Positions 29,861 to 37,615 of a stretch of 64,000 nt of DNA are shown piece by piece. The position numbers and the translations under genes were made by a program. The DNA lies in IMG/VR virus record IMGVR_UViG_3300030090_007212, positions 62,001 to 126,000 of that record. The stretch is one strand, 5' to 3'. A model generated the notes under the pieces. The model made no database searches, was not told the origin of the DNA, and saw nothing but the letters and a program-made list of their open reading frames with translations. Position 1 is the first letter of the stretch. Each line of letters begins with the position of its first letter. Origin of the DNA: a virus.

Positions 29861-31453
29861 TTACCAATTTCTAGTATTATCTATTACCTCAATGTTAACC
29901 TCTTCTACTTTTTGATTTTTGATACATTCTGCCTTTGCGTTTTCGATTGCACTTTTCCAATTTTCCCCCTGCTCTCCAGACAGACTCATCATACCATCAA
30001 AAACCTTTTCAGAATCTCTTTTATAACCAGTAATTTGTTCGTCACTGAGACCGGGCGTATTAATTATAATCTGTTGAATTTCTGCTGTCTCTTCCTCAAT
30101 TACCCCCATACTCATTGCTGATAGTATTTGAGAATCAGTTTTATCATTAATATTTTTGCAGTTAATTATGGGATGTTGACCACTAGCAATCTTCTCAAAA
30201 TTACTTATTGTTTTCTTAATTACGTTAGATTTTGCAGTCGCTAAATTATACTTATTATCTGTTGCCCTTTCTAAAGCATCATTAAGACCTTTCATTGCTT
30301 CTTCGGCTACCTCCTTAGCATCGGGCATAAATTTGGCGAAAATATTTGCCCATTCATCAAACACTGCTCTGACAGGATTTTGCCCTTTTCTGGCTGCATC
30401 AATTCCGATGTATGCTGAATACAAACCTGCCGGAATTACTACAATTCTCATAATATAAAAGGGAAGTAGACCTGCATAATCACTATAAGGATATTTTAAA
30501 TAAGCTTTAAAAGGCCCTGTAATAGCACTTTTTGTACCACTCCAGATTTTTTGCAGTCTGGTTTTTTCTTCGATATCTGGCATATCATCTATTTTTTCTT
30601 TTATTTTATCAACATTTACACCTGTACCCTCTATAGGTCCTTTAGGATTATTCTGTATATTGATGTTCTCAACATGTGCACCCTCTTGAATAATAAAAAC
30701 ATTACTCCCCTCACTCTGCACTTTATTGGCTTCATTAGCAATAGCTGTCATATTTTCCTCTGTGGCTACTACAGTTTTACCATCTAATTCATCTAAAGAT
30801 TTACCTTTGGGGTCAACTACCTCATCTACTTTAGGTTTAGTAGGTTCAACCTCCCTCTTCTTAGGATCTACATTTTCAAATTCACCTTTTTCATTTTTCT
30901 TGTATTGATCAACTTTACCAGTTCCATCAGTTTTAGTTATTAATATTTCATCACCTACTTTTTCCACTTCTATTTTGGTAGGATTCATTTCTATTACTTT
31001 TGACCCACCTAAAGCTTCACTGTATAATTCTACTACAGTTTCTCTCATTCCACCTTCGGTGGGTACATCTTTAAGGGCCGCTATAAAAGCATCTTTATCC
31101 ACATTTTTTAACTGACCAGTATTTGCCATATAATCTAAACTTTTAATAAAACTATTTACCTTCACTAAATCTACAGCTGCCGGTACAAGTTGTTTCCAAA
31201 CATTAGGAAATTCATCAATATGTTTACTTAAATCGTCAAAAGTACCTATTTTAAAATTTAAATAATCAGTAAGAATTTTAGGATCAATAGTTTTTAGCCC
31301 AGCAGTAAATGCTCTCTTTAATGATTGAAATGGCCTTCTCTGTTCGTGTAACATAGAGGTATTTTTTACTAGATTACCATATAATCTCTCTTCTGAAAAT
31401 AGGGATTTCATTCTTGAAATCTCTTCATTTAATGTTTTTATTTTATTTTTCAT
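29861..31453 (-). CDS. Leader-peptide protein A: paralogous domain plus membrane segment
   Basis: A 530-residue protein. Residues 1-38 form a leader ending MLHEQ (L-x-E-Q), after which the sequence RRPFQSLKRAFTAGLKTIDP begins. That ~140-residue domain, and the IEVEKVGDEILIT strand after it, is repeated in the gene at 35905-37221, while the leaders of the two differ. Residues about 180-300 are charged (KKREVEPTKPKVDEVVDPKG). About 325-350 is hydrophobic (YAGLLPFYIMRIVVIPAGLY), a likely membrane segment. The rest is helical with two cysteines. No enzymatic motif is recognised. The leader resembles those of T4 internal head proteins, cut after Glu by the prohead protease. Packaging in the head is inference. 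Confidence 0.7.
   Translation of the reverse strand: MKNKIKTLNEEISRMKSLFSEERLYGNLVKNTSMLHEQRRPFQSLKRAFTAGLKTIDPKILTDYLNFKIGTFDDLSKHIDEFPNVWKQLVPAAVDLVKVNSFIKSLDYMANTGQLKNVDKDAFIAALKDVPTEGGMRETVVELYSEALGGSKVIEMNPTKIEVEKVGDEILITKTDGTGKVDQYKKNEKGEFENVDPKKREVEPTKPKVDEVVDPKGKSLDELDGKTVVATEENMTAIANEANKVQSEGSNVFIIQEGAHVENINIQNNPKGPIEGTGVNVDKIKEKIDDMPDIEEKTRLQKIWSGTKSAITGPFKAYLKYPYSDYAGLLPFYIMRIVVIPAGLYSAYIGIDAARKGQNPVRAVFDEWANIFAKFMPDAKEVAEEAMKGLNDALERATDNKYNLATAKSNVIKKTISNFEKIASGQHPIINCKNINDKTDSQILSAMSMGVIEEETAEIQQIIINTPGLSDEQITGYKRDSEKVFDGMMSLSGEQGENWKSAIENAKAECIKNQKVEEVNIEVIDNTRNW
30947..31345. repeat. Diverged direct repeat, copy 1
   Basis: This DNA segment matches 36760-37155 along its length, with many identical runs (for example the stretch encoding GGMRETVVEL). 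It encodes the domain shared by leader-peptide proteins A and E. It reflects gene duplication and offers a substrate for recombination. Confidence 0.85.
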
Positions 31454-31462
31454 CTTTTTTTT

Positions 31463-32104
31463 TTAATATCCTAAATCTGCTTTAGTTAACACGTGGTTAG
31501 TATTTCTTAACTCAGAAATTTTAACTAAAGGGTTACCTGAATTATCTAAAATCATAAAATCATCTCCTAATGTTTTAGTATCTATTCTTTTAGGGTTGTC
31601 GGTAGAATATACACCAGAATAAGTGAGATTTTTATAATTCAATATTATATTTGAGGGGTCACTATCATCACATTCAAATTTACCATCATATTGGACTTGA
31701 GCAAATTCTTTAGTACCATTTACTGCTTTTTGTAAAACACTTAAGGTATCAATATAAGTCATTCTCCCATTATCCCAAAAAGTGTAATTCATATCAGGAT
31801 AATTTCTTCCCTTATGTGTAATGTTACCAACAGAATGCATTAAATAACAATTTCCTACACCAGAATGTTTTTTAATAGTTATATTATTACTATCAATACC
31901 CTGTTGTGTCATCCATTTCTTAACGCATTGTAAAAAAGGTTTATTTTCACATCCTGCACTCGATGTTCTTTGTTCACTTTTATTATAAACTACATAACCC
32001 GCCTTCTCTAATTGTTTCTCACAATCCGCATGAGATTGTTCATTTAGACCCATTAAATGTCTTATCTGATTTATTTCGGTTATAATATTTTTTTTATTCT
32101 TCAT
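31463..32104 (-). CDS. Leader-peptide protein B, unknown
   Basis: A 213-residue protein with an N-terminal leader (NQIRHLMGLNEQ, ending L-N-E-Q at residue 23), followed by a cysteine-containing domain (SHADCEKQLEKAGYVVYN, AGCENKPFLQCVKKW) and a beta-rich C-terminus. The GYVVY...CVKKWMTQQGI pattern resembles small peptidoglycan-binding or helical-pair modules, but I cannot name it. The start overlaps the 53-residue gene by 11 bases and its stop is 9 bases before protein A. It is probably one of the packaged or leader-processed set. Confidence 0.65.
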   Translation of the reverse strand: MKNKKNIITEINQIRHLMGLNEQSHADCEKQLEKAGYVVYNKSEQRTSSAGCENKPFLQCVKKWMTQQGIDSNNITIKKHSGVGNCYLMHSVGNITHKGRNYPDMNYTFWDNGRMTYIDTLSVLQKAVNGTKEFAQVQYDGKFECDDSDPSNIILNYKNLTYSGVYSTDNPKRIDTKTLGDDFMILDNSGNPLVKISELRNTNHVLTKADLGY

Positions 32105-32255
32105 CTTTTTCTATAATGTTTAAAATCCTTTCAAATTCCTTAATATCCTCATTAATAAATATATCTTGTTCTGAATTAAAACCATATTCTATAATATAAT
32201 TCTTATATTTATCCAGTTTTTCTTTTATTTCAATTAGAGTTATGTTATTTTCCAT
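32094..32255 (-). CDS. 53-residue acidic protein
   Basis: A short frame (MENNITLIEIKEKLDKYKNY... ending EKDEE) lies between leader proteins C and B. Its ATG follows the stop of protein C by 4 bases and its end overlaps the start of protein B by 11 bases. Such packing supports translation by coupling. It is a helical, Glu/Ile/Lys-rich peptide with no recognised family. Confidence 0.6.
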   Translation of the reverse strand: MENNITLIEIKEKLDKYKNYIIEYGFNSEQDIFINEDIKEFERILNIIEKDEE

Positions 32256-32259
32256 TATG

Positions 32260-37225: not shown

Positions 37226-37235
37226 AATAAATATT
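37226..37235 (-). promoter_or_regulatory. Candidate late promoter (ATATTTAT motif)
   Basis: Coding-strand AATATTTATTATATATG, about 4 bases before the start of protein E and just past a terminator. Confidence 0.45.
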
Positions 37236-37244
37236 ATTGGGTAT

Positions 37245-37268
37245 AAAAAAACCCACATAAGTGGGTTT
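37245..37268 (-). terminator. Rho-independent terminator after leader protein F
   Basis: On the minus strand, AAACCCAC-ttat-GTGGGTTT is followed by further T. The stem is a perfect 8 bp, 24 bases past the stop of the 107-residue gene. Confidence 0.88.
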
Positions 37269-37291
37269 AGGTAATACTTAGTTTTATGAAA

Positions 37292-37615
37292 TTAATAATT
37301 AGGTATTTTTTCATCCATAGGATATCTACCACTACTTGGCATACATTTTGCCCCACATTCTAATAATTTAGGTCCAATTATAAATGCATCTGTCATATCT
37401 ACACCTTCTAATAATGCTGCAATATCACTCATAGAAGGAGCTTCCATTTCCATTAACATTGCCGCTATTTTCATTGCTTTTGCACTATATTTAGGCCCTA
37501 ATGCGTCTTCCACACAAGAAACACATACTGGAGATGGTTCAATACTTTGCTCTACCAATACTCTTTTAACGATTTTTTGTAAATCCGATTCTTTTAATTT
37601 AATTACTTTTTTCAT
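37292..37615 (-). CDS. Leader-peptide protein F, small
   Basis: A 107-residue protein. The N-terminus (KLKESDLQKIVKRVLVEQ) is the clearest version of a leader type I recall from many uncharacterised marine phage proteins ('LTESDLxxIVKRVIxE'), again ending L-V-E-Q. The remaining ~84 residues hold two CxxC-like pairs (CVSCVEDALG, CGAKCM) and Met/Ala-rich helices (AKAMKIAAMLMEMEAPSM). It has its own terminator and follows the sheath gene. It is probably a small processed virion component. The biochemical role is unknown. Confidence 0.7.
   Translation of the reverse strand: MKKVIKLKESDLQKIVKRVLVEQSIEPSPVCVSCVEDALGPKYSAKAMKIAAMLMEMEAPSMSDIAALLEGVDMTDAFIIGPKLLECGAKCMPSSGRYPMDEKIPNY

Follow-up and report, generated by a model that had tools for sequence, protein, structure and literature searches.

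The DNA considered here, referred to as the window, is a 64,000-nucleotide stretch covering positions 62,001–126,000 of the viral record IMGVR_UViG_3300030090_007212, which comprises 138,502 bases. It has a G+C content of 31% and belongs to a contractile-tailed phage, for which sheath, tube and hub-like genes could be identified. The tail sheath gene (37666–40485) and a baseplate hub-like gene (29045–29815) form the upstream and downstream borders, respectively, of an island containing six genes whose products all begin with a short leader, as well as the tail tube gene (34531–35019). Sheath, tube and hub-like proteins have no leader. All features of the window described here lie on the minus strand. 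The six proteins are very probably internal head cargo of a T4-like phage, carrying removable capsid-targeting leaders.

All six open reading frames put forward in the initial annotation are present, and each begins with a leader of 15–37 residues, ending in L/M-x-E-Q in five cases and in LLE-F in one (an arrow marks the proposed cleavage site below). The gene at 29861–31453 bears a class III leader (residues 1–37; 31343–31453) ending in MLHE↓Q. In its neighbor at 31463–32104, the leader (residues 1–22; 32039–32104) ends in LNE↓Q; throughout the ortholog family [LIV]xE↓[QAS] is the constant element of an otherwise divergent leader, and the window copy scores below the cut-off of 9 bits used for leader profiles while its orthologs score above it. 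The gene at 32260–34437, with an ATG at 34437, encodes a class I leader (residues 1–17; 34387–34437; LTE↓Q) and a C-terminal family found in most relatives. Its body contains long hydrophobic stretches, and the product is possibly a membrane-active ejection protein. A further class I leader (residues 1–15; 35857–35901; LLE↓F) precedes the conserved protein encoded at 35083–35901. This protein had been annotated as a HAD enzyme: the HAD-like motifs DWDD, ITAR and FSDDD are indeed conserved, but neither a Pfam match nor a confident fold match was obtained. The AlphaFold model was poor without an alignment and reached a predicted local distance difference test score (pLDDT) of 82 with one, with no confident solved relative. 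The assignment as HAD, drawn from the motifs only, is tentative. The adjacent gene at 35905–37221 also has a class I leader (residues 1–23; 37153–37221; LTE↓Q). Its product has three close homologues only. The earlier suggestion of a possible phospho-lyase is unsupported, as Pfam, NCBIfam and the PDB sequences contained nothing that matched. The small gene at 37292–37615 carries a class II leader (residues 1–22; 37550–37615) that ends in LVE↓Q.

The first piece of evidence that leader and body are separable comes from two of these genes. Contrary to the earlier description of the bodies as entirely different domains, the products of 29861–31453 and 35905–37221 share about 150 residues with 66% identity, starting at the Q of the motif (Q24 in the latter), while their leaders are unlike, being of class III and class I, respectively. 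Of the ten residues preceding the joint the two proteins agree in 2/10, and of the ten that follow in 9/10; the corresponding values for the DNA are 4–6/12 and 10–12/12. Among relatives, which were gathered using the tail sheath as query, at least three other bodies were found with two leader classes. One of them is the small body of the 37292–37615 type, whose leader belongs to class II in most genomes but to class V in L075. Since body homology and leader swaps meet at E↓Q, the leader can be regarded as a module whose border is the proposed cleavage site. The end of the leader is also conserved in the 35083 protein: all 26 homologues have E15 and nearly all have L13, while neighboring leader positions vary. 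The model of this protein contains a low-confidence helix at residues 7–15, after which the confident domain starts.

Fused genes provide a further view of the site. In several relatives, the 35083-type body follows a different cargo protein in one chain. Its leader has there been replaced by unrelated upstream sequence, yet LTE↓S or LVE↓S is found at the aligned position. Fusions of 35905-type and 35083-type genes, encoding about 1000 residues with LTE↓S kept at the junction, occur at G001:193636–196632, L034:5764–8835, L041:9078–12068 and L046:5123–8149. A second kind of fused cargo (L046:9910–13509, G004:10603–14097, G007:50216–53776) comprises proteins of about 1160–1200 residues that open with a class I leader and contain a class III leader, complete, near residue 900–950. 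Retention of the site in fused cargo fits a polyprotein that would be cut by the same protease. Taken together, leader swaps, the invariant Glu and the retained sites in fusions support, as far as sequence comparison goes, a processed targeting leader.

The terminal motif is concentrated at N-termini. Within the first 45 residues, [LIVMF]xEQ is present in 5/7 block proteins compared with 14 of 770 internal 45-residue windows (1.8%), a contrast that rules out a chance origin of single sites; the associated binomial P of about 4e-8 applies to a region picked after the fact. For the whole window the count is 5/40 proteins (P about 8e-4). Among 1375 non-redundant proteins of the phage group, the motif occurs at 2.3–3.0 per 1000 in residues 1–30 and at 0.6 beyond residue 120, a four- to fivefold difference, whereas permuted motifs yielded weaker N-terminal rises at most. 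The L-x-E-Q ending initially described holds in part: (L/I)xE is constant, and the following position (P1′) may also be S, D, N, E, T or F. Similarly, the leaders are basic and amphipathic on average for the group, but the 35905 leader, with a charge of −2, is neither. Leader length ranges from 13 to 48 residues overall. The consensus sequences are MK-I-ITESQYKRIFLxE for class I, MKIKKNGKVINLTESDLRRIVKRVIKE for class II, MK-LNEEIxRMKSLFTEERLYGNLVE for class III and MGRIxKIKRxxIxEANKRxLNE for class V, and a short form, MKKLIKKILxE, exists besides the classes. P3 is L or I in 57/67 class I and 42/50 class II leaders. Profile hidden Markov models (HMMs) built for four leader classes matched N-termini far more often than internal control windows (63 versus 2, 58 versus 3, 49 versus 4 and 9 versus 1), although there is some circularity in this comparison, the profiles having been derived from pattern matches in the data to which they were applied. 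A few matches in internal windows may be genuine internal leaders of fused proteins. Searching phage records by tblastn with the leader alone, as had been suggested, produced no match, the query being too short, and a literature search for leader strings found none.

In relatives, 138/161 distinct genes of the sheath-to-hub island have a recognized leader, and sheath and tube again have none. The remaining 23 consist mainly of homing endonucleases, fragments, leaders below the cut-off and a hub gene missed by the stop rule. Genes that look like homing endonucleases by sequence are inserted in the island at L023:7115–7990, L024:17705–19285 and L082:5851–8375; lacking leaders, they constitute a natural negative control. 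In one search, leader-bearing candidates formed 167 sequence clusters, and the relative G001 has 31 leader candidates together with head genes on one contig. Further leader genes are located elsewhere in the window's own contig and across several regions of G001, and leader genes also adjoin terminase and portal genes. The gene at 49125–49538, mentioned initially as a possible seventh member, fits as a likely member: it has the short leader MMERNLIKKILRE↓E and similar genes in G002 and G003. A likely member is also found at 15143–15886, next to replication genes. It encodes an acidic coiled-coil protein whose orthologs in six genomes have the site [LI](T/N)E↓QDP (LTE↓QDP, ITE↓QDP or LNE↓QDP) after 40–48 residues. 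Most cargo bodies have no known family. Recognized domains are M23, NlpC/P60, CHAP, LysM, peptidoglycan-binding, dual-specificity phosphatase and MORN repeats. Entry into the host could be aided by those that act on peptidoglycan. The C-terminus of conserved proteins at G001:223313–223861 and G003:36338–36904 resembles a leader of class III (EEVKRIKNLIIYESKI); C-terminal cleavage also occurs in T4 Alt. The host of the phage group is likely a member of the Bacteroidota, as 3/5 matches of capsid-protein relatives in cellular genome collections lie on contigs binned to this phylum. Leader-like N-termini were also seen at L227:5652–5921 and L229:3700–5109, on contigs binned with rumen Bacteroidota, suggesting that the leader system extends beyond aquatic phages.

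A leader of this kind calls for a protease and for capsid and scaffold proteins with the same site. A search of the window's own 138.5-kb record revealed neither an S77 protease nor gp23, and the absence of a gp21-like protease had been named in the initial annotation as refuting the idea of packaged cargo. This record is collinear with 101–225.8 kb of the 253.9-kb relative G001, which carries a gp23-like capsid protein, a scaffold and an S77 protease at 248.9–252.8 kb. The head genes are absent from the truncated record because it stops about 23 kb short of their position in G001. The G001 protease aligns with T4 gp21 (PDB 5jbl, E 5.5e-18) and retains Ser and His in alignment with it, the 5jbl crystal sequence showing Ala there; we take these two to be the catalytic residues of gp21. 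The matching sites were found as well: in about 60 relatives, the capsid propeptide terminates at LL(N/T/S)E↓(S/A/T), variants being few, and the scaffold in relatives has several (L/I)xE↓S/A/Q sites, one of which is conserved as LNE↓STAYVDP.

In the mechanism suggested by these observations, each cargo protein would be synthesized in precursor form, its N-terminal 13–48 residues being a removable leader that targets it to the capsid. The leader would carry the protein into the prohead core during head assembly, where a gp21-type (S77) prohead protease would cut after (L/I)xE, as it would in the capsid propeptide and the scaffold. Mature bodies would remain in the head alongside the DNA and reach the host with it. 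Between sheath and hub, the phage group would maintain an island of cargo genes with high turnover, in which bodies and leaders are exchanged at the cleavage site. Packaging and leader cleavage are strongly inferred from genes, and injection and anti-host roles are proposed by analogy with T4.

Several points weigh against this mechanism besides the missing head genes of the own record and the partial circularity of the profile test. The leaders exceed those of T4 in both length and variety. Some leader genes adjoin tail genes, so that single members may be tail-located, and several cargo domains are peptidoglycan-active, which is also compatible with tail or lysis proteins. It might therefore be asked whether the leaders direct proteins to the tail, that is to the tube lumen, the tape-measure complex or the baseplate, rather than to the head. 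The position of the island among sheath, tube and hub genes and the M23, NlpC/P60, CHAP and peptidoglycan-binding domains of the cargo would agree with such a destination. The leader ends, however, match the cleavage sites of capsid and scaffold, the known tail proteins are devoid of leaders, and leader genes are neighbors of terminase and portal genes and occur in other parts of G001, which makes targeting to the tail improbable.

A role that dispenses with cleavage can also be envisaged: the leader might be a retained docking helix that binds a host or phage partner, LxE marking the uncut end of the helix. The average amphipathic and basic character of the leaders and the helix modelled in the 35083 protein are in line with this idea. 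It is nevertheless decidedly improbable, since fused proteins lose the leader helix yet keep LxE at the aligned position, body homology begins at the site, and different leader classes share the same terminal motif. Finally, a few N-termini could have been spread by gene duplication and recombination without having any function. Recombination is evident at the joint of the 29861 and 35905 genes and leaders recur within one genome, but the conservation of P1 Glu and P3 Leu/Ile amid otherwise variable leaders, together with the leaderless homing endonucleases of the same island, renders functionless spread extremely improbable. Internal head cargo with removable capsid-targeting leaders thus remains the favored explanation.

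T4-type internal proteins block host defenses. To our knowledge, few are known outside well-studied phages, since finding them requires purified virions. If the leader marks cargo, the proteins that uncultivated phages inject can be read directly from their genomes. A broader proposal is put forward tentatively and with somewhat less than even confidence: in a widespread T4-like lineage of Bacteroidota phages, interchangeable capsid-targeting leaders of several classes would constitute a general delivery system. A single phage would inject as many as dozens of proteins, most of them unknown, including polyprotein cargo cut in the head, and at least some leaders would imitate the C-terminal tail of the scaffold.

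A cultivated relative in which the system can be tested is Flavobacterium phage immuto, through its proteins gp083 and gp230. Immuto has genes for a gp21-type protease, gp20 and gp23, and two otherwise unlike proteins share the N-terminus MKKQILSEQF(R/K)RMQ(K/F)LAGIITE↓S. It differs from the window's lineage in having no cargo island between sheath and tube and few recognized leaders. In immuto (L216:37627–38868 and L216:23676–24140), the scaffold C-terminus, SEQVSRWQKLAGIIK, closely resembles the leader MKKQILSEQFRRMQKLAGIITE of the two proteins; the scaffold tail is the best non-sibling match of this leader in the proteome (score 49, next 35), and the leader may imitate it. As a general rule, such mimicry was set aside and is kept as a lead only. 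It is clear in immuto alone: in the window's lineage the weak resemblance does not exceed 7 bits, and none of the leaders of Microcystis phage Mel-JY01 matches the scaffold tail. The ejection proteins of phiKZ and SPN3US, processed by an S80-type protease, are similar in that numerous head proteins lose an N-terminal propeptide and are passed into the host (PMC5694885). In contrast to the S77 protease and (L/I)xE site of the present system, phiKZ cuts after (S/A)xE and most of its propeptides are much longer. The sites seen here do not follow the phiKZ-type (S/A)xE pattern, P3 being L or I in most leaders and in capsid propeptides.

The closest counterpart is the T4 system of IPI–IPIII and Alt with their capsid-targeting sequence (CTS). 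T4 gp21 cuts after L/I-X-E, and the leader is removed once it has directed its protein to the prohead core (PMC9026906), a precedent for a targeting leader also described in PMC3012670; after injection, the internal proteins act as inhibitors of restriction enzymes (PMC12373910). Both systems feature short N-terminal leaders ending in (L/I)xE on unrelated bodies, and diverse, variable cargo; relatives of the window's phage also share with T4 the type of protease, the scaffold and the gp23 capsid protein (PMC9026906, PMC3012670, PMC12373910). The start of T4 gp24, MAKINELLRE↓S, resembles the leaders in form only, and the CTS was compared by motif and layout. Judged by these sequence-level features, which it shares, the present system would work like that of T4. 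Despite this likeness, at least four leader classes exist here in one lineage, leaders measure 13–48 residues rather than the 10–19 of T4, Q is common at P1′, and there are up to about 30 candidate cargo genes per phage, with leader/body exchange at the site and fused cargo containing internal sites. What is new lies in how many leader classes and cargo proteins there are, in the size of these proteins, in the swapping at the cleavage site and in cargo fusion.
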